NCBI GenBank assembly: GCA_902796035.1
Contig: CADBNR010000039.1
Coordinates: 1-35,905, forward strand
DNA from: an uncultured Bacteroidales bacterium
GTDB taxonomy: Bacteria; Bacteroidota; Bacteroidia; Bacteroidales; Muribaculaceae
Length of the DNA: 35,905 nt
Direction of reading: 5' to 3'
The notes under the pieces are model-generated. The model was not told the origin of the DNA. It worked only from the letters and a program-made list of their open reading frames with translations, and searched no databases. Position numbers and translations under genes: made by a program. Of the stretch, positions 2,173-28,362 are shown one piece after another. The number at the start of each line of letters is the position of its first letter. Position 1 is the stretch's first letter.

Positions 2173-5100
2173 TCACAACAAGGGAGCCATTGCACCGCGC
2201 AGCCGTTTAGGCAGCTTCCCGCGGTACCGCTGCCATGCCGCCTTGCGGATTTCGGTGCGACGGATGTTGTACCCTCCGCGGGCGCGCAGCTCGGTGGCGC
2301 ATGGATCCGTCAGATGCCGCGACAGTTCCAGCTGAAGGCGTCCTAATTCATGACGCGTGTCCATCACGCTGTCACCGTCGGCCACAAATGGATATGACAG
2401 CGGATTGTCGCCCATCAGTATGTCGGCCTTATACAGCGCCCGGTAAGCCTCCCTGTATTTCCCTTCAGTCATCAGGCTACGGGCCGCCTTTATCAGTGCC
2501 GCGCGCATCTGCCCCACCATCCGGGCCGGGGCCGCGTCCATATACACCTTACGGTCAAGTGCATTCGGAGCCTTCGTCACGTTCACTCCGCGCATCAGCT
2601 CGTCATGACCCGCCGTTCCGGTCATCCGTCCGTAGCGTTCGGCCATCAGCGACAGCGTCAGCATCGCGCTGTCCAGGTGCAGACGCGCCGGCGCCTTGGC
2701 GGCCGAGAACCAGTATATCGGCCTGTCGCCGGCATTGGCGAGCATGTCGAACATTATGAGCTGCGCAAAACGGACGTTGCGCCCCGCACCGGTTTCCGAA
2801 AGTTTTCTCATGTCAAACACTGTGCCGCGATCCATTCCGGGCACACGCATCAGCGCATACCGGGCCGGGAACTCAGGTACTGATCCTGCCTCTCCTGAAT
2901 CCTTAAGCCGTTGCAGCTGTTCGTGTGCGGCCAAGGTATCTCCGTTGTCACTTATCCGCACCTGTGTGAATGCGTCATAGATTATGTCCTCGCGTTTCAG
3001 GGTAGTGTTCACAGGTTTCGATTCACGCCACTGACGCATCATATTTGCCGCATAGCCCGGCAGCCCGAGATAAGACAGGTTCACCACGCGTACGTCCCGG
3101 CGCACTCCCTCCACCTCCTGCGCGTACCATAACGGGAACGTGAAGTTGTCGCCGTCCACGAATATCACGGCATCCCTGTCGAGCGATTCCAGTGTGGTGC
3201 GGGCTATCGTGGCGGCGGCGCGGCGTCCGCTGCGGTCGTGGTCGTCCCAGTTCTCGGTGCACATCCACGCCGGCACCATAAGGGTCAGCGCAAAGGCCCA
3301 GGGCGTCCTGAACATCCGCGCCACCCACAGTGAGCCGTATCCGATCCATATCGCGTACGCCCAGAACGAACCTAAGAATGAATAGTCGCGCTCCCTCGGC
3401 TCGCCGGGACTCTGGTTAAGGTAGATCACTATGGCAATGCCCGTCATCACGAACAGCAACGACGACACGGCCGCAACCTGCCGTCCGCGGTGTCCCGAAC
3501 GCAACAGCCATATCAGGCCTATGATGCCAAGCAGCAACGGGATGCCGAAATATCGGTTGCGTCCCGGATTGGCGGCACCGGCCTCGGCCGGCAGGTAGTC
3601 CTCGGCACCGAGCATCGCATTGTCTATCGGGGCGATTCCGAATATGAAATTGCCGTGCTGCACCTCGCCCTGCGAGGGTATGTCGTTCTGACGGCCCGCG
3701 AAGTTCCACATCAGATAGCGGAAGTACATGTATCCTATCTGATATGTGCCCAACATGCGCAGATGCTGCGCGACGGTAGGTTTGTACGATGTCTTGCGTA
3801 CCCTCTTGCCCGACGCGTCCATCATGACCACGGGGTTGCCGAGCGTGTCAAGTGCTTCCGACACTTCCACCCGCCGCATGGTCGAGGTGTTCATCCCCGC
3901 CCAGTCGGCAAACGACGCAAGGTCCACCGGATTGCGGCTCGTGATGCGCGGCAGGAAGCTGTTCAGCTCGGGCGTATAGATGTTTTTCAGCGCATATCCC
4001 TTGACGATATATCCGGACTTGCCGGACGCGATAAGCCGTGCGTTGGCCGCAGAATCTTCAGGCAGGAGCCTGCCGCGCGTCGTGTTCATACGCGCGCCCG
4101 GCTCGTAGGGCATCAAAAGTTTATGTTTCTTCTCGACGGCATATTTCACATACTCCGGACGTGTGGCTCCGGGCTTCCATTCCTCCTGAAACAGAGGCTT
4201 GCTGTAAGGCGTATATCCATAGAAAAGCGGTGCCGCGCCATATTGCTCGCGGGCCTGATACCGCGCGAACGAGAATGGTTCGCCGGGCATCGCGGAGTTG
4301 GCCGGCGACGGTATGCCGCCGCGTATCGGCACCAACGCGTATGCACCATACCCTATCAGGAACAGGCTGGCCATCCAGAAGGCAAGGTTGAAGCGGCGTA
4401 AGCCCGTTTTTAGTGTCACGGCCATGCCTGCCACTATCAAAACGCCGAGCAACAGCACGAACGCCACCACACCTGACAGCATCGGCATACCGAGCCTGTT
4501 CACAAACAGCAGTTCGAGCCATGCGGCGGCCGAGATACTTTTGGGCATTATCACTATCAGTATCAGTCCGACGCACAGCGCGCCGAGCACAACAATCAGC
4601 AACAACTTCCAAAAACTGCGGATGCCGCGCCTCATGCCCCATATCAGGGCCAATGCGGGAATCGCCAACAGATTCAGCTGATGCACGCCGATGCTGAGTC
4701 CGAACACATAGGCCAACAACACCAACAGCCGGTTGGCGGCGAGATTGTCTTTGGTGAACATCCATTTCACCATCAGCCATACGGTAAGTGCCGTGAAGAA
4801 TATCGACATGGCGTACACTTCGGCTTCCACGGCCGAGTACCATGTGGAATCGCACCATCCGAAGCACAGCGCACCCACCGCAGCCGTGCCGGCGGCTCCC
4901 CATACAGGACGTACACCCGACTCTTTCCGCCGCCTCAGCAGCCACAGCGTCACCTTATACAGCACCGAGGCCAGCAACATCCCGGCCATGGCGGTGAACA
5001 GCCCGCTGGACAGGTTCACGGCGTATGCGGCATGTTCCGGTCCGGACAGCAGCGTCACTATATGCTCCGCCAGCATCCACACCGGATTGCCGGGAGGATG

Positions 5101-10613: not shown

Positions 10614-11651
10614 TTATTTATAAATGAATTGCAGCAGCGACTGACCCACGGCCTTGAGCGTGGTCTTGTCTATGTTGCCGATGTTGTCGCTTACGGTATG
10701 CCATGTCGGATTGAATCCCTGCCTTGGGTCATAGTCGATTATGTCTATGGCCGGCACACCCTGTTCTATCAGCTTCACATGGTCGTCGGTCACCGCGCCG
10801 CCCATGGACTGCGGGAAATACGACGCATATCCGGCCGCGCCGGCCGCCTGACGGAACTGCGTGTTCAGCTCCGGGGCCGCCTGCTGCGAGTAATACTCGT
10901 AGGGGAACTGCGCGTTGCCTCCACCTACCATATCAAGGAGTATCGCCCTGGAGGGTCGCCATCCGTTGGCGTCCATATTGTCGGCGAAATATTTCGCGCC
11001 CATGGCCCAGGAATCCTCCCTGTTGTCCGTGCCGTAATCCTCTGCGTCCACAAATAGGATGTCTATGCCGTAACCGGGATTTTTGATGGCGAGCTGACGG
11101 GCGGTCTCCAGCAATATGGCCACACCACTGGCGCCGTCGTTGGCTCCGTCTATAGGTTGCTTGTGCTTAGATTCATCCGGATCCTGGTCGGCCCAGGGAC
11201 GGGTGTCGTAATGTGCAAGAAGCAACAGCCGTGCCGTTTCCTTTTCCGGATTGAAGCGGGCGAAGATGTTGCGCGAATGCAGCACAGTGCCATCGAAAGC
11301 CGTGGCGTCAAAACGCTGTTCATGTACCTGCGCTCCGCTGCGTTTCAGTTCCGCCACTAACATATCGCCCGTCTTGCGATGCGCCTCACTGTTGGGCACA
11401 CGCGGCCCGAAATCCACCTGACGCTTCAGATAAACGTATGCACTGTCCGCATTGAATTCGGGCACGGATGCTGCCGCGGCATCGGGCGCCGAGCCGTTCA
11501 CCGACCCGGTCGTTGCACCGTCTACCGATCCGGCTGTTCCGGTCGATGCCGTGCCGGCACCGGTCGCGGAACCGTTCCGCGCACCGCCGCACGACACTCC
11601 GGCCGTCAATATCGCCGCCGTCACCACCAATGCTCCGATAATCTTTTGCAT
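10614..11651 (-). CDS. M28-family glutaminyl-peptide cyclotransferase lipoprotein
   Basis: The 345-residue protein has a lipoprotein signal (MQKIIGALVVTAAILTAGVSC, Cys21 the likely lipidated residue) and a 40-residue Gly/Ser/Thr/Ala-rich spacer, then the zinc-dependent cyclase/peptidase fold. Metal-site motifs are LLAHYDTRPWAD, DGANDGASGVAILLE, FVDAEDYG and HTVSDNIGN. Such enzymes convert N-terminal glutamine to pyroglutamate; in type IX-secreting Bacteroidota many exported proteins have Gln after signal cleavage, which suits the T9SS genes elsewhere in this window. An aminopeptidase role cannot be excluded. Its start codon lies four bases from a -7 promoter box. Confidence 0.88.
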   Translation of the reverse strand: MQKIIGALVVTAAILTAGVSCGGARNGSATGAGTASTGTAGSVDGATTGSVNGSAPDAAAASVPEFNADSAYVYLKRQVDFGPRVPNSEAHRKTGDMLVAELKRSGAQVHEQRFDATAFDGTVLHSRNIFARFNPEKETARLLLLAHYDTRPWADQDPDESKHKQPIDGANDGASGVAILLETARQLAIKNPGYGIDILFVDAEDYGTDNREDSWAMGAKYFADNMDANGWRPSRAILLDMVGGGNAQFPYEYYSQQAAPELNTQFRQAAGAAGYASYFPQSMGGAVTDDHVKLIEQGVPAIDIIDYDPRQGFNPTWHTVSDNIGNIDKTTLKAVGQSLLQFIYK

Positions 11652-11782: not shown

Positions 11783-13162
11783 TTATTTCGATACAACTAC
11801 ATGAAGCTTAACAGAACTGCCATTATAGTCATAGATGGTAAGATTCCCCTCCTTTTTGATAGTAAACTTATCACCTTTCCTACCAGTCTCTTGAATGCCG
11901 TTCAGATAGTACATACTATTGTAGACCCAAAGATTGCCTGAAGAAACTGCTATCGGATACGATCCGCTCCCCCATGTACCATCAATTCCTTCGTAATAAG
12001 GAGTCCAATAGAATATTCGCATACCCGCATTGGTAAGGAGTCCATCATCGCCAAAGAAATGAATATATTTTTCATTTGAGGAGCTACTGCTGGAGGCATG
12101 TTCACATCCGCTTTGCATTTTGGTAATTTCATAATACCAATGTTGGTCTTTATCCATTATATAATTATCAGCAAAGGGCTTTTCTGTATAATCTTTTGTG
12201 GTTGTTCCCGAAGAATCCATATGATCGAATTCCTCTGTGAGGGTCGATGTGGAATAGCGTAATTTCAAGGTTGAGCCGTATATAGAATACTCGTAATCTG
12301 ATTTCTCGTTACGCCATCCATCCTTATCATAATTGATATGGATTAGATCTTTTTCCGCCTCCCACGTGAATGCAATTCTACGAACACCGTAAGCTTTCCT
12401 TATTCGATTTTCTTCATAATATCCTTTCCCATTGTCAAGGAAATAATATTCCTTTAATCCGTCCTTTAGGATATCACCTGCTTTCCATCTTCCAATCAAC
12501 GGTTTAGAATAATCTGTCTCAACTGGGTCATCGTCTCCTGGATTTTCAGGATCTTCAGGATCATCATCCTCATCGTCTCCGAAGATTGGACCATCTTCAT
12601 TTTTATAGGATTTAAACTGTTCTGCTATTAGGGCTGGCATTGAACTGAGAGATTCGCGCGCAATTCCGACATGAAACTCTTTCTCTCCCCGCGTTATATA
12701 GCATTTGATACCTACGGGATTATTGGCAGTTTTTGACGCGCATACCCATTTCAGAGCATAACATTCTTTTCTTGTTTCTAAACTAATTATTTCCGAAATA
12801 AAGACTCCGCTTCCAATCTTATAAGAGGAAAAGCCGACGTAACCCCAGCCAACAGTGTTTGTTGTCTTTAGCCAATAAACTTTCGTGTAGGCAATTCTAT
12901 CATCTTCTTTGGGATAAATACCGATATACAACGGTCCGGGCATTTCATTGTTTTCATATTCCTTAGGAATTGAAATCTTGAAAAGACCAAATATGTTATT
13001 CTCGTTGGCTTTGGACTCTTCGTTACCATCTTCTCCGACAATCGCATCGTCCTCCTTAGTTTCACCGGTCCCAGTATTATTTGATGATTCGTTATCGGGA
13101 TTTGGCTCGTTATCAGTTGATTTCTCACATGCAAAGCATACCGATAATGCAACGGCTGTCAC
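11783..13162 (-). CDS. surface lipoprotein of unknown function, signal peptide frameshifted
   Basis: The frame from GTG at 13162 gives 459 residues: a hydrophobic start ending in SVCFAC, an acidic Asn/Glu-rich spacer, a beta-rich domain (about 55-195), a second acidic linker (DDEDDDPEDPENPGDDD), and a lipocalin-like beta domain beginning LIGRWKAGD. No known family is recognised. A proper signal peptide start (ATG at 13187, MKKYFF) lies upstream but is out of frame: with seven instead of eight T in the run at 13176-13169 it would read MKKYFFLLVTAVALSVCFAC, a textbook lipoprotein signal. So the gene is either broken, phase-variable, rescued by slippage, or carries a one-base sequence error. Base use is clearly more AT-rich than the flanking genes, which suggests acquisition. 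Confidence 0.7.
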   Translation of the reverse strand: MTAVALSVCFACEKSTDNEPNPDNESSNNTGTGETKEDDAIVGEDGNEESKANENNIFGLFKISIPKEYENNEMPGPLYIGIYPKEDDRIAYTKVYWLKTTNTVGWGYVGFSSYKIGSGVFISEIISLETRKECYALKWVCASKTANNPVGIKCYITRGEKEFHVGIARESLSSMPALIAEQFKSYKNEDGPIFGDDEDDDPEDPENPGDDDPVETDYSKPLIGRWKAGDILKDGLKEYYFLDNGKGYYEENRIRKAYGVRRIAFTWEAEKDLIHINYDKDGWRNEKSDYEYSIYGSTLKLRYSTSTLTEEFDHMDSSGTTTKDYTEKPFADNYIMDKDQHWYYEITKMQSGCEHASSSSSSNEKYIHFFGDDGLLTNAGMRIFYWTPYYEGIDGTWGSGSYPIAVSSGNLWVYNSMYYLNGIQETGRKGDKFTIKKEGNLTIYDYNGSSVKLHVVVSK

Positions 13163-13382: not shown

Positions 13383-13413
13383 TTGTTTGGTCAAATTATT
13401 TTATGTAAATTTG
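13383..13413 (+). promoter_or_regulatory. promoter of the ATPase gene, -7 box inside the palindrome
   Basis: TTG (13383-13385), a 20-base spacer and TAAATTTG (13406-13413) form a promoter whose -7 box is the left arm of the upstream palindrome. The downstream palindrome has C instead of T at the matching position and lacks the box. Start is expected near 13419, and a GGAG ribosome site is at 13441-13444. Confidence 0.5.
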
Positions 13414-13440
13414 CAGTGGCATTGCAGATTTGCATAAAAT
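13398..13440. repeat. upstream palindrome of the ATPase unit
   Basis: Arms of about 21 bases meet at position 13419. The three non-Watson-Crick positions (13406/13432, 13411/13427, 13416/13422) would be G-U pairs in RNA. The right arm ends just before the GGAG ribosome site of the ATPase gene. Confidence 0.8.
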
Positions 13441-13449
13441 GGAGATTGT

Positions 13450-14604
13450 ATGGATGGGAATTTTATTACAAGGACTATGGCGGAGGCGGTCGTTGAGGCG
13501 GCTCAGTATTTCCCTGTCGTGACGCTGACGGGACCTCGGCAGTCGGGCAAATCGACTCTGCTGAGACATCTGTTCAACGATCTGCCTTATTATTCAATGG
13601 AAGATCTTGACATTAGACAGCTGGCAATTTCCGATCCTCGGGGATTTCTTGCACAATTCCATAACGGTGTCATCATCGACGAAGTGCAGCATGTACCGGA
13701 ACTTCTTTCATATATACAGGGTATTGTCGACGAGAATCCGCATCGCAAATTTTACCTGACAGGTAGTTCTCAGTTTGGATTGCTGCATTCCGTGTCACAG
13801 TCTTTGGCAGGACGTTCCGCAGTATTCGAGCTGTTGCCTCTATCATTGCGGGAGATTGCCGGGCTTGATCAGACGGATTTTGCCAATAACCTGATGTATA
13901 AAGGGTTCTATCCCGCTATCTGGAGCGGCAAGAACTTGCCGAAGTTTCTATATCCTGCTTACGTCAAGACATACATAGAACGTGATGTCCGCAACATATT
14001 GTCAATAAAGGACCTCGACACCTTCCAGCGGTTCATCAAGCTATGTGCCGCTCGCATCGGTAGCATTTTCAATGCTTCGGAACTGTCTAACGAACTTGGA
14101 GTGGCATCGAATACCATCAACTCCTGGCTATCTGTGCTCCAGGCATCGTACATAGTGTATATGCTGCCTCCTTTCTATACGAATACACGCAAACGCCTGA
14201 CGAAAAGCCCGAAACTATATTTCACGGACTGCGGTCTGGCAGCCTGTCTGCTGGATATCGATTCTGCCGACACCATGAACCGCGACAAAATGCGCGGTCA
14301 CCTGTTTGAGAATATGGTGATAATGGATTTTCTAAAGAAAAGGTATAATTCCGGTCAGAACGGCGGATTGTATTTCTACCGCGACTCTAACGGCAATGAG
14401 GTTGATCTGTTGGTAAAAGACGGCAACGGTTATGACTGCTATGAAATCAAGTCATCGTCCACATTCCATCCCGATTTTGCCAAGGGATTGAATAATTTTG
14501 AAAAGACCTTCCCCGAGCTGGTTCACAAGAAGTCCATAATTTATTCAGGTCAGCCCCTCCCCTCCGTCAACAACATCTCCATTATCAATTACCGAGATTG
14601 TTAA
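13450..14604 (+). CDS. AAA_14/DUF4143 ATPase with PD-(D/E)XK-like C-terminus
   Basis: The 384-residue protein has Walker A GPRQSGKS (28-35), Walker B GVIIDEVQ (73-80) and a sensor segment FYLTGSSQ (101-108). DUF4143 follows with YVKTYIERDVRNILSI and a winged-helix-like part (FNASELSNELGVASNTINSW). The C-terminus carries GNEVDLLV (315-322) and YEIKSS (331-336), the D and ExK spacing of restriction-like nucleases. Such ATPases are numerous and scattered in Bacteroidota genomes and their role is unknown. The start is set by GGAG six bases upstream. It is the only plus-strand gene between 84 and 26222 and is bracketed by matching palindromes, so it looks like an insertion. Confidence 0.9.
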   Translation: MDGNFITRTMAEAVVEAAQYFPVVTLTGPRQSGKSTLLRHLFNDLPYYSMEDLDIRQLAISDPRGFLAQFHNGVIIDEVQHVPELLSYIQGIVDENPHRKFYLTGSSQFGLLHSVSQSLAGRSAVFELLPLSLREIAGLDQTDFANNLMYKGFYPAIWSGKNLPKFLYPAYVKTYIERDVRNILSIKDLDTFQRFIKLCAARIGSIFNASELSNELGVASNTINSWLSVLQASYIVYMLPPFYTNTRKRLTKSPKLYFTDCGLAACLLDIDSADTMNRDKMRGHLFENMVIMDFLKKRYNSGQNGGLYFYRDSNGNEVDLLVKDGNGYDCYEIKSSSTFHPDFAKGLNNFEKTFPELVHKKSIIYSGQPLPSVNNISIINYRDC

Positions 14605-14609
14605 TACAT

Positions 14610-14648
14610 TTTATGCAAATTTGCAGCAGCACTGCAAATTTGCATAAA
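14610..14648. repeat. downstream palindrome of the ATPase unit
   Basis: Two perfect 17-base arms (14610-14626 and 14632-14648) flank the loop CAGCA, five bases after the ATPase stop codon. No T-tract follows, so it is not a typical terminator. It is the near-identical partner of the repeat at 13400-13438. Confidence 0.85.
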
Positions 14649-14671
14649 TTATATTCGTATTCTTCGGGATT

Positions 14672-15748
14672 TTAGCGTGCGAAGAGGGCGCGGTGGGCGT
14701 CGGTGGAGTTGCGGATGCCGCTGTATTCTGCTTGCCGGCGAAGCCAGGCGGGGTCGCTGAGCCGGTCGATGAAGGCTTCACGGTCCGGGGAAGCGGCACG
14801 GCAGGTCTGTAAGTCAGAAGGCAGGTCCTGCAGGGCGTCGGGAAAGACCTCGAGGGTCTCGGCAAGGATTAACATGGCCGAGGGATTGCCGGCAAGTGCG
14901 GCGCGCGCAAAATATGCTAAGCTCTTGTCGTGGCTGTACCTTACGCCCACACCTCGGGAATAGGCGTCGCCGAGTAAAGCCATGGCGCGTGCTCCGATGC
15001 CGATAGTGTCGGGGATCTCGGCGGCTCGTTCCAGCAACAACACGCCGGCGCCGGGGGCATAGCCGGTGTAATAACGCAGGCCTAAATTGAAAGCGGAGTC
15101 CTGGGACAGTCGCTGCCAGCGGCGCCCCATCAGTGCGATCAGGCGCGCTTCGGCGTCGCCGAGGCCGCGTTCCAACGCCGCTTCATAATTGGCCGCGGCC
15201 TTCAGCGTGTCGCGCTTCACCCAACGCCCGTCGCGGTACATGTCGCCAAGCATACTGAACGCAGTTGGTATCTGAGCGTTCACTACCTTCTTAAGATAGA
15301 CATACGCGGTGGAATCGGCCATCAGCCGCTCCTTAGGCGTACGGCCGGATACGGTGTCGTTCAACAACAGATATGCCAGATTGCTGACGGCTCTCGGGTC
15401 GCCGGCGTCCGCACTGCGCCGCAACCACATCAAGGAACTGTCACGGTCTACCGGAATCAGTTCACGGTTCCCGACCTCATATCCTTTGCCGTAGAGATAT
15501 CCTAAGTAATTCATGGCCGGTGGAAAGCCGTTCTGGGCGGAACGCTGCATCAATGACAACGCCCTGACCGAATCGGCAGGCACCGAATCCCAGCCTGTCT
15601 CGAGGACGGTGGCAAGACGATACTGCGCCTCCGCGTCGCCGTTCTCGGCGCGCTGCTCAAACTGACGGAACGCCCTGCGTCCCTCAGGCGTGGCCGCGAA
15701 CATCGTGGCCACCATCACCCCCAACAGTATCAGTACCGTCTTCCTCAT
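14672..15748 (-). CDS. secreted Sel1-repeat protein
   Basis: The 358-residue protein begins with a signal peptide (MRKTVLILLGVMVATMFAAT) and then has Sel1-type alpha-helical repeats, for example AENGDAEAQYRLATVLETGW, QNGFPPAMNYLGYLYGKGYE, ADAGDPRAVSNLAYLL, GNPSAMLILAETLE. Such solenoids bind partner proteins and are often periplasmic. The start overlaps the stop of porX by four bases (ATGA), so it is translated with porX and may belong to the same secretion or envelope-signalling system; this link is inference. No enzymatic motif was found. The 3' end lies 24 bases from the downstream palindrome of the ATPase unit. Confidence 0.85.
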   Translation of the reverse strand: MRKTVLILLGVMVATMFAATPEGRRAFRQFEQRAENGDAEAQYRLATVLETGWDSVPADSVRALSLMQRSAQNGFPPAMNYLGYLYGKGYEVGNRELIPVDRDSSLMWLRRSADAGDPRAVSNLAYLLLNDTVSGRTPKERLMADSTAYVYLKKVVNAQIPTAFSMLGDMYRDGRWVKRDTLKAAANYEAALERGLGDAEARLIALMGRRWQRLSQDSAFNLGLRYYTGYAPGAGVLLLERAAEIPDTIGIGARAMALLGDAYSRGVGVRYSHDKSLAYFARAALAGNPSAMLILAETLEVFPDALQDLPSDLQTCRAASPDREAFIDRLSDPAWLRRQAEYSGIRNSTDAHRALFAR

Positions 15749-17286
15749 CCCTCTTTCGGCGTCAGCGTTATCAGCGGCACTATCATCTCCTCCAGCGAGA
15801 TGCCGCCGTGCTGGAACGTCCCGTTGTAATACTGCACGTAGTAGTTGTAGTTGTTGGGATATGAAAAGAAATCCTCGTTGGTGGCGAATATGTATGCACT
15901 TGCGATATTGGGTGCCGGCAGTCCGAAACGTTTCGGGTTCTTGATCTCGTACACCTGCTTGGGATTGTAGCTCAACGTCTTGCCCACCTTGTAGCGAAGG
16001 TTTGTGTTGGTGTTCTTGTCGCCCACCACCTTTATGGGATTCTCAACGCGGATGGTGCCGTGGTCTGTCGTGAGCACCACCTTATAGCCGAACTCGGCCA
16101 GGCGGGCGAAGATGTCGAGCACGCCGGAATGACGGAACCACGACTCCGACAGCGAGCGATAGGCCGCGTCGTTGCTGGCCAGCTCACGGATCATCTTCGA
16201 TTCCGTACGGGCGTGCGACAGCATATCGATGAAGTTCAGCACCACCACCTGCAATGGAATGTCGCGCGTCTTGCCCAGGCGCGCCAGATATTTCTCGCAG
16301 CCGGTGGAATCGTATATCTTGGTGTACGTGAACTTCTCCTTACGGCGGAAGCGGTCCAACTGCGTCTGCACCAGTTCCTGCTCGTGCACGTTCAGGCCTT
16401 CGTCCTCGTCCTCGTCCACCCAGTATTGCGGATACATGGTGGCGATGTCCACGGGCATCAGCCCGGCGAAGATGGCGTTGCGCGCATACTGCGTCGACGT
16501 CGGCAGGATGGTGGTGTACAGATCCTCCGACACGTTGAAATGCTCGGCCAGCATGGGCTGAATGGCCTTCCACTGGTCAAGACGGAAATTGTCTATCAGG
16601 AAGAAACATACCTTCTCCCCCTTGTCAAGCAGCGGAAACACATTGTTCTTGAACAACTTCGGGCTCATCAGCGGGCGGTCTTCGGACGTAACCCAGCTTT
16701 CGTATGTGCGGCGTATGTACTTGCAGAAATTGGAATTGGCGTCACGTTTCTGCATCAGCAGCATCTCGGCCATTGGCGACGACGACTGCGCCAGCTTCAT
16801 CTCCCAGTTGACGAGGCGGCGGTACACTTCCTTCCATTCCTCCAGATCGGAGGCCATATTGATCTGCTGCGACAAATCGCCAAACTCCTGCTGATAGTCG
16901 GACGACGTCTGCTCGGTCACAATCTCGCGGCTGTGCAGGTTCTTCTTGATCGACAGCAGTATCTGGTTGGGGTTTACGGGCTTGATCAGATAGTCGGCGA
17001 TGCGGTTGCCTATTGCCTGGTCCATGATGTTCTCCTCCTCCGACTTGGTGATCATCACCACCGGCAGCTCCGGATGCCGCTCGTTGATGATGTCCAGAGT
17101 CTCCAGGCCGGAGATGCCGGGCATATTCTCGTCCAGCAATATCAGCGAATAGTTGGCATGTTCCAGCGCGTCGAGCGCGTCGCGGCCGTTAGACACGGTG
17201 TCCACGTCATAGCCCTTCGCCTTAAGGAACATGATATGCGGTTTCAGCAGATCTATCTCGTCGTCTGCCCAAAGTATGCGGTTCAT
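15745..17286 (-). CDS. porX: PorX-type response regulator with PglZ domain
   Basis: The 513-residue protein has a receiver domain (1-120) with the acidic pocket WADDE, phospho-acceptor Asp52 in LILLDENMPGISG, the switch Thr in VVMITKSEEEN and Lys in YLIKPVNP. A helical linker (about 125-200) leads to a PglZ domain of the alkaline-phosphatase fold with FFLIDNFRLDQW, LPTSTQYARNAIFAG, FIDMLSHAR and VVLTTDHGTIRV, the expected zinc ligands. PorX controls type IX secretion in Porphyromonas and Flavobacterium, and its PglZ domain is reported to cleave oligonucleotides. Its cognate kinase PorY is not in this window. It lies 3 bases after porW and overlaps the Sel1 gene. Confidence 0.93.
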   Translation of the reverse strand: MNRILWADDEIDLLKPHIMFLKAKGYDVDTVSNGRDALDALEHANYSLILLDENMPGISGLETLDIINERHPELPVVMITKSEEENIMDQAIGNRIADYLIKPVNPNQILLSIKKNLHSREIVTEQTSSDYQQEFGDLSQQINMASDLEEWKEVYRRLVNWEMKLAQSSSPMAEMLLMQKRDANSNFCKYIRRTYESWVTSEDRPLMSPKLFKNNVFPLLDKGEKVCFFLIDNFRLDQWKAIQPMLAEHFNVSEDLYTTILPTSTQYARNAIFAGLMPVDIATMYPQYWVDEDEDEGLNVHEQELVQTQLDRFRRKEKFTYTKIYDSTGCEKYLARLGKTRDIPLQVVVLNFIDMLSHARTESKMIRELASNDAAYRSLSESWFRHSGVLDIFARLAEFGYKVVLTTDHGTIRVENPIKVVGDKNTNTNLRYKVGKTLSYNPKQVYEIKNPKRFGLPAPNIASAYIFATNEDFFSYPNNYNYYVQYYNGTFQHGGISLEEMIVPLITLTPKEG

Positions 17287-27915: not shown

Positions 27916-28362
27916 TCATAAAATATGCCATTTACCTCCATTTTTAGGGCCGGAATGATTCACCAGACTATTCATCCTGGATATTTCTCTTTCTATCGTA
28001 CGTGTTGCCACTCCGATTTTATTTGCCATTTCAGACATGCTGATATATGGATTGGCATTTATCAAATCTAAAATCATCTGTTGGCGTGGAGTGATTTTTT
28101 TACCGACATCTTTACCGACATCTTTACCGACATTTTTACCGACATTTTTACCGACATCTGACTTTTCAGCTTCGCGGCTCCGGAGGTCAAAGGTCACTTT
28201 GACTGAATTAATGGTAGTCTCTATGTGCATCGGGCGACCGGTTACTTCTTGCCAACGTTTGAGTTTGCGGAGTCCATAGCCGAGATTCTCCGACAGGTGC
28301 GCCAGACGGAACAGTTTCGCGATTACCGGATTGCGGGGCTGGGATTCAAACGAGCTTTCCAT
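27916..28362 (-). CDS. remnant of a HATPase-type transcriptional regulator with winged helix
   Basis: The 148-residue product corresponds only to the last part of the COG2865-like regulators: the end of the HATPase_c_4 domain (SQPRNPVIAKLFRLAHLSEN then LGYGLRKLKRW), a tetrapeptide repeat linker of five VGK[ND] units, and a winged-helix domain (ITPRQQMILDLINANPYISM, then IGVATRTIEREISRM). Full members are 400-500 residues with an N-terminal AlbA-like domain, which is missing; an in-frame stop lies five codons upstream of the ATG, followed by AT-rich sequence and an oppositely directed promoter. It may be a pseudogene or a small DNA-binding protein. No function is assigned. Confidence 0.65.
   Translation of the reverse strand: MESSFESQPRNPVIAKLFRLAHLSENLGYGLRKLKRWQEVTGRPMHIETTINSVKVTFDLRSREAEKSDVGKNVGKNVGKDVGKDVGKKITPRQQMILDLINANPYISMSEMANKIGVATRTIEREISRMNSLVNHSGPKNGGKWHIL
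28099..28158 (-). repeat. five tandem 12-bp units encoding VGK[ND]
   Basis: Five contiguous copies of TTTACCGACATY (plus strand) code for the linker of the regulator remnant. Copies differ only at the last base. Copy number in 12-bp steps would lengthen the linker without shifting the frame. Confidence 0.9.

Follow-up and report, generated by a model that had tools for sequence, protein, structure and literature searches.

A PDC-S01-type ATPase-nuclease gene with a subfamily-specific upstream palindrome appears to behave like a mobile unit

A gene of the type listed as phage-defense candidate PDC-S01 appears to behave like a selfish mobile unit, consisting of one open reading frame (ORF) and a palindrome in front of it. 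The example that led us here lies in a contig of 35,905 nucleotides from an uncultured Bacteroidales bacterium (assembly GCA_902796035.1, contig CADBNR010000039.1), the whole of which we call the window. The association of palindrome and ATPase is real, general, and mobile; the exact palindrome-gene-palindrome cassette proposed in an earlier, sequence-only reading of the window is its minority form. We lean toward the view that this is a selfish nuclease gene that travels with its own promoter-operator palindrome and inserts with long target duplications, as restriction-modification (R-M) genes do.

Table 1. Features of the window at and around the ATPase gene
Feature	Position	Strand	Remarks
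Upstream 39-bp palindrome (dyad)	13400..13438	+	Ends 11 bp 5' of the ATG; includes TAAATTTG
AAA_14/DUF4143 gene, 384 aa	13450..14604	+	Profile matches; PADLOC PDC-S01
Second palindrome copy	14610..14648	+	5 bp past the stop codon; C replaces T at the promoter-box position
Sel1-like repeat gene, right flank	14672..15748	-	Label by reading
Peptidase-like gene, left host flank	10614..11651	-	M28 label by reading
Lipoprotein-like ORF, flanked by the peptidase gene and the left palindrome	11783..13162	-	ORF reading

In the window, the two palindromes bracket the ATPase gene at the coordinates first read from the sequence (Table 1), sharing 34 of 39 positions, with transitions at all five differences. 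The distance given for the right copy was correct, and that for the left copy, read as 9 bases, had to be amended. Self-complementarity, with the center base excluded, is 32/38 on the left and 34/38 on the right. Half-site matches with at most two mismatches number four in the window against 0.10 expected, and at least four were found in 0 of 100 shuffles. A genome search found the strict palindrome once in the window's own genome and the half-site AATTTGCATAAA only inside the right palindrome. Other than the palindromes, no repeat turned up at distances of up to 700 bp from the gene. As judged from the ORF list rather than computed, the ATPase gene is the sole plausible plus-strand gene between positions 84 and 26222, in agreement with its description as a single plus-strand gene in a minus-strand block. 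TTAT, which had been read as a repeat flanking the unit, does stand outside both window palindromes, but can be dismissed as a target duplication: it does not border the palindrome pairs at L024, L040, and L170 on the outside, so that the window alone among four pairs has it, and it carries no weight because it occurs five times in the 237 bp of left flank at 30% GC.

The sister genome G290 carries at the same site a single palindrome, without the ATPase gene and without the lipoprotein-like ORF, between the Sel1-like flank, which abuts it, and the peptidase-like gene; the right flank thus adjoins a palindrome both in the window and in G290. The Sel1-like gene (E ≤ 1e-60) is present in 20 of 111 genus genomes, own included. 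Only one comparison is possible at this site, because among the 20 loci (1.5 kb fetched) the peptidase neighbor is kept only in the window's own genome and G290. What G290 shows is a site with one palindrome and no gene, and not the empty site with a single TTAT that had been suggested as a check. The second palindrome of the window would be a duplicated target or, alternatively, what is left of a neighboring unit. At all 20 loci, the Sel1-like gene is adjacent to the gene for PorX, a response regulator of type 9 secretion, found in the window at 15745-17286 on the minus strand (NCBIfam, E = 2e-242).

The predicted protein matches the Pfam families DUF4143 (E = 1.4e-48, 165.1 bits, cut-off 28.1), AAA_14 (E = 9.8e-29, 100.4 bits, cut-off 27), and AAA_22 only, with no Y1-type or tyrosine-transposase domain among its Pfam families; NCBIfam gave no family for it. 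Its domain layout comprises an AAA+ domain and winged helix at about residues 1 to 269 and a PD-(D/E)XK nuclease at about 270 to 384. In PD-(D/E)XK nucleases, the catalytic residues follow the order E...D...ExK. This order is found here, and E287, E317, D319, E332, and K334 do not vary among the 49 aligned homologues, which upholds the nuclease-like motif noticed at the protein end, and the protein conforms to the PD-(D/E)XK fold. Overall, it is an ATPase of the SSO1545-like AAA+/winged-helix kind with a PD-(D/E)XK nuclease fused to it. Archaeal SSO1545-type AAA+/winged-helix ATPases (PDB 2fna, 2qen) match over residues 1 to 269 only, the C-terminal nuclease being an extra of the window protein. 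A PDB sequence search with alignment A1 gave five P-loop matches, the best of which was RecA (E = 1.3e-4). The best match to PDC-S01 in PADLOC was to model PDLC04790 (E = 5.9e-97). The same genome holds 10 DUF4143 matches, nine of them above the profile cut-off, and nine other DUF4143 genes (L002 and eight more) also match PDC-S01 models.

An upstream palindrome is a feature of the wider family, with a sequence that varies between subfamilies and an architecture that remains constant. The sample was drawn from 345 genomes (74 matches listed, 71 examined including L002, giving 69 genes) and 111 genus genomes (45 listed, 31 examined, 29 of them new), mostly fragmented assemblies; the 98 genes formed 62 clusters. 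At a strict score of 10, an upstream dyad was found in 36 of 62 clusters versus 5 of 327 control genes. In the 26 clusters below this score, many of those listed have imperfect dyads and some have none. The 40 clusters that score at least 8 have a median dyad span of 37 bp, and 37 of the 40 are odd-centered. Within the window's own genome, the nearest paralogue, L002, has a strong dyad of different sequence on both sides; upstream scores reach 14 at L005, 10 at L006, and 12 at L008, and are 5 in five other DUF4143 genes (the 95% point of the null being 8). In a tree of 113 proteins, labeled by us, one Bacteroidales clade has the window-type palindrome in 14 of 15 rows, the fifteenth (L164) having only 11 bp of upstream sequence, and a further seven rows outside this main clade carry it. 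Tandem upstream palindromes occur at L018, L023, L025, and L046, with starts 61 to 73 bp apart, and at wider spacing at L002.

Behind the gene, the picture differs from the general cassette first envisaged. Downstream dyads are no commoner than in controls (7 of 62 clusters versus 36 of 327), and a matching copy directly behind the stop codon is present in 10 of 115 rows: L002, the window itself (L068), L119, L167, L168, L169, L170, L183, L024, and L040. The 115 rows are the 98 genes plus 17 loci from the pattern scan below, with overlaps such as L027/L163 kept; L088, L120, L039, and L041 offer too little sequence 3' of the gene. At L079/L083, a downstream palindrome copy lies farther off, within a repeat of 159 bp. 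Most relatives are thus without the downstream copy, the very finding that had been named as speaking against the cassette.

A core pattern of the window-type palindrome, scanned for in one genome per species across 84,980 species, occurred in 34 stretches, mostly of Bacteroidota and also of Patescibacteria, Margulisiibacteriota, Gammaproteobacteria, and Anaerolineae. In 17 of the 34, a homologous ATPase (36 to 75% identity) adjoins the palindrome, which lies at its 5' end, separated from the start used by 0 to 88 bp or else running over it; two upstream palindromes are present in 4 of these 17. Copies past the stop were seen at L024, L040, and the window, and for L039 and L041, whose genes are truncated, a downstream copy would fall outside the available sequence. 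The remaining 17 stretches have a solitary palindrome with no adjoining ATPase, although at L022 a distant ATPase homologue lies about 4 kb off. With L022 left out, the solitary palindromes lie mostly between unrelated genes in the loci read, about 13 of the 16, and ATPase fragments remain in 2 of the 16 searched (L026, L033). The search proposed in the sequence-only reading thus gave a divided answer: the ATPase adjoins half of the palindromes and is absent from the other half, yet the palindrome is not widespread within genomes, being present as one copy in 21 of 23 genomes and as two in 2 of 23. One of the two double-copy genomes contains L017, where identical palindromes at 1232-1270 and 4600-4638, 3.37 kb apart and with identical 7-bp outer flanks, bracket an 830-aa non-ATPase gene; a strict palindrome-ATPase link is disfavored because of this pair.

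One scan of viral contigs gave no palindrome stretches. Phage records with a protein match number 18, and the two best (56.4% and 55.6% identity), which are unverified, unannotated scaffolds, have the upstream palindrome. Plasmid homologues (E ≤ 1e-5) were found in 575 of 72,556 records; among a further four plasmid homologues, no palindrome was found in those of Shinella and Ruminococcus. The plasmid homologues L274, L275, and L276 adjoin parA-like, repA, or mob genes, and strong palindromes precede the gene in two of these three. On the Emticicia plasmid pEMTOL02 (L267), the ATPase gene (1498-2664), with a palindrome that ends at the ATG, lies on the opposite strand between the gene for L-ribulose-5-phosphate 4-epimerase and araA, as if one gene had been inserted into an arabinose operon.

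That gene and palindrome move together is well supported by comparison of relatives. Among 125 gene pairs (at least 80% nucleotide identity, at least 300 bp of flank), 97 had neither flank in common, 16 one flank, and 12 both. In the 97 pairs, which derive from 29 genes, mostly of family f18, and are not independent, homology starts at a median of 45 bp 5' of the ATG, the palindrome edge lying at a median of 39 bp, and ends at a median of 8 bp before the stop codon. Orthologous flanks would have been recognized, because pairs such as L079/L083, L081/L091, and L091/L092 keep both at 88 to 98% identity. Between L168 and L170, the common segment runs from palindrome to palindrome, and homology is lost no more than about 25 bp beyond them. 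L002 shares the unit, including the first 29 bp after the downstream palindrome, with a 92% identical relative in G290, where the left flank is a contig end. The flanks of L078, L100, and L102 are mosaic, the left from one relative and the right from another, as if copies were recombining with one another. The relocated segment is the palindrome and one ORF, without a methyltransferase gene.

Empty sites exist as well, and together with the 97 pairs they bear out the proposal that gene and palindrome move as a unit. The ppx gene is present in 55 of 61 genomes of one f18 genus. Of the 30 loci retrieved among these 55, 16 have ppx directly next to its convergent neighbor, 4 have an ATPase inside the retrieved flank, and 10 are arranged otherwise. 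Where the unit is inserted (L081, L091, L092), 35 to 50 bp of the ppx end stand on both sides, with mismatches. The ppx site of G484 (L286) shows a degenerate dyad followed by an ATG, the gene being absent, and another ATPase lies 1.8 kb beyond. In the window's own genus (30 of 52 and 30 of 38 matching genomes fetched), G343, G350, and G297 have a 442-aa gene next to one that is DUF2461-like (labels by reading). The end of the 442-aa gene carries palindrome-gene-palindrome in G302 and G316 and a solitary palindrome in G273, and in G309 the unit lies where the DUF2461-like gene ends. Comparison of L202 (856-1535) with L171 places a gene pair of G273 beside its solitary palindrome, seemingly at the site of the G343 ATPase; we take the pair to be nucleotidyltransferase-like and HEPN-like.

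Part of the family has direct repeats flanking the gene. Repeats scoring at least 16 lie across the ATPase gene in 20 of 111 loci, or 18 of 109 without doubles, versus 2 of 310 control genes (p about 1e-9). A recount of the control genes alone, without seed skipping, gave 3 of 310, namely L017 (the palindrome pair), L037 (beside ATPase genes), and L297; among f18 control genes, 1 of 58 has a direct repeat. In the opposite orientation, 8 of 111 loci score equally high, because palindromes must score so. The 18 cases comprise six palindromes, the flank plus palindrome of L079, and 11 other sequences, and these 11 alone exceed the 2 of 310 controls (p about 1e-5). Repeat lengths range from 22 to 558 bp, the 558-bp one at 87% identity. 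For the 11 non-palindromic repeats, seven of which belong to f18, the right repeat starts 0 to 51 bp past the stop codon in seven and 80 to 284 bp past it in four, and the left repeat ends 97 to 532 bp 5' of the ATG. Since the distances from the gene vary, some of them may be later duplications. At L079/L083, one site seen in two genomes, the repeat on both sides of the gene is 159 bp of flank plus palindrome.

The unit, as we see it, consists of one gene and the palindrome in front of it, the product being an AAA+ ATPase with winged helix and PD-(D/E)XK nuclease. The palindrome, at or overlapping the start region, is most likely a promoter-operator recognized by the gene's own winged-helix protein, so that the gene would be autoregulated. 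The unit would enter intergenic or gene-end sites and spread as a selfish nuclease gene, with insertion leaving a long, variable target duplication in part of the cases; when the gene is lost, the palindrome could stay behind as a scar. In the window, the unit sits between the Sel1-like and peptidase-like genes, with the second palindrome behind it. Binding of the protein to the palindrome, repression of its own gene, and initiation of insertion by its own nuclease are what we infer from this arrangement, and the gene may be selfish rather than useful to its host. A bolder version, which we hold only tentatively, is an undescribed class of transposable element, the AAA+/winged-helix/PD-(D/E)XK protein of which would recognize its own dyad and insert dyad and ORF elsewhere, the right end being set near the stop codon and the left end varying, and the duplicated target would span tens to hundreds of base pairs.

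Promoters of Bacteroidota have a -7 box with the consensus TAnnTTTG, which TAAATTTG resembles in the sense direction. At the position concerned, the inner or only upstream copies of the window-type set have T in 14 and C in 4, and the outer or downstream copies T in none and C in 7 (p = 7e-4; counts made by hand, on rows that are not fully independent). The dyads contain 88 mismatches (20 GT, 10 AC, 58 other), mostly transversions, as expected for protein-bound duplex DNA. The simplest reading of the palindrome is an operator to which the winged helix would bind. Action as an RNA hairpin in the 5' leader of the transcript, which would account for a palindrome directly 5' of the ATG and for the G-T mismatches on the sense strand of the window's left copy, is very improbable: 58 of the 88 mismatches are neither G-T nor A-C, unlike those of an RNA stem, the excess of G-T over A-C is not significant (p = 0.10), and the dyad is without a loop, with an odd center in 37 of 40. 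It is rather unlikely, if less so by far, that the palindrome is an operator only and that the gene was moved passively by plasmids, homologous recombination, or other elements, the palindrome being shared since genes that lack their promoter-operator would not be retained. The upstream position as a rule and the rarity of downstream copies, the promoter-box-like T confined to inner or only upstream copies, the transversion-rich mismatches, and the homologues on plasmid records all agree with passive movement, but it leaves unexplained the matching post-stop copies in 10 of 115 rows and the direct repeats at 18 of 109 genes versus 2 to 3 of 310 controls.

Two further readings give the palindrome a part in insertion itself, and we think each improbable. 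Were the unit a true transposon with the two palindromes as its ends, as first modeled from the window, the same palindrome on both sides in ten rows, the homology of L168 and L170 that stops close outside both palindromes, and the identical pair around another gene at L017 would all be expected. Matching ends are found in 10 of 115 rows and not at every copy, however; most copies, many of them clearly relocated, have the upstream palindrome only, homology between one-palindrome copies ends near the stop codon, and in place of a constant short target duplication there are repeats of 22 to 558 bp, with TTAT in the window only. Alternatively, solitary palindromes could be target sites, the gene inserting beside one and duplicating it. 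The single palindrome of G290 where the window carries the unit, the repeat of flank and palindrome on both sides at L079/L083, and the 17 solitary stretches of 34 point that way, but at one copy in 21 of 23 genomes the palindrome is too rare to serve scattered sites, and clear remnants occur among the solitary copies (L026, L033, L286).

The selfish nuclease gene that we favor has partial counterparts among known systems. Single genes beside short palindromes that also occur alone are known from REP sequences and their RAYT transposases, and the unit resembles them in both respects. It differs in having no tyrosine-transposase domain and a palindrome found once in 21 of 23 genomes and twice in 2, copy numbers at which a REP-like repeat family is rejected. 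Insertion of R-M genes with a long target duplication was reportedly described by Nobusato et al. in 2000. The accessible part of one source states that R-M genes generate long, variable target duplications on insertion (PMC3031569). The likeness lies in a nuclease gene at scattered sites with such duplications in part of the copies; long, variable direct repeats of the R-M type are seen in the family and not at the window copy. In contrast to R-M systems, the relocated unit is without a methyltransferase gene, an AAA+/winged-helix ATPase is fused to the nuclease, and the palindrome stands before the ATG. Operators of C-proteins and toxin-antitoxin systems, as the accessible part of another source describes them, lie before the gene of a self-controlling DNA-binding protein (PMC3874152). 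The arrangement inferred here is similar, but the one protein is the nuclease itself, and palindrome copies or remnants also occur elsewhere.

The family as such is already known. The window protein and the nine other DUF4143 genes of its genome match models of the phage-defense candidate PDC-S01, which, in the available parts of the respective sources, ranks as the fourth most common defense across prokaryotes (PMC12988326) and as the most frequent individual defense locus of rumen genomes, with 10,358 occurrences (PMC13356809). Neither the palindrome nor a mobile unit is mentioned in the accessible parts of this literature. Within the open-access literature, we found no description of the mobility of the family or of its subfamily-specific palindrome, both of which are apparently new. 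Most defense candidates such as PDC-S01 still await validation, and if these genes are mobile units with their own recognition palindrome, their place in defense catalogues may reflect mobility and not immunity. Should they form the undescribed class of transposable element, the top single-gene "defense" locus of some microbiomes would be a selfish element. The palindrome also supplies a predicted DNA target for each subfamily, on which binding and cutting are open to direct test. Elsewhere in the window, a short ORF at 27916-28362 on the minus strand contains VGKNVGKDVGK repeats and, by reading only, resembles the C-terminal piece of a larger regulator.
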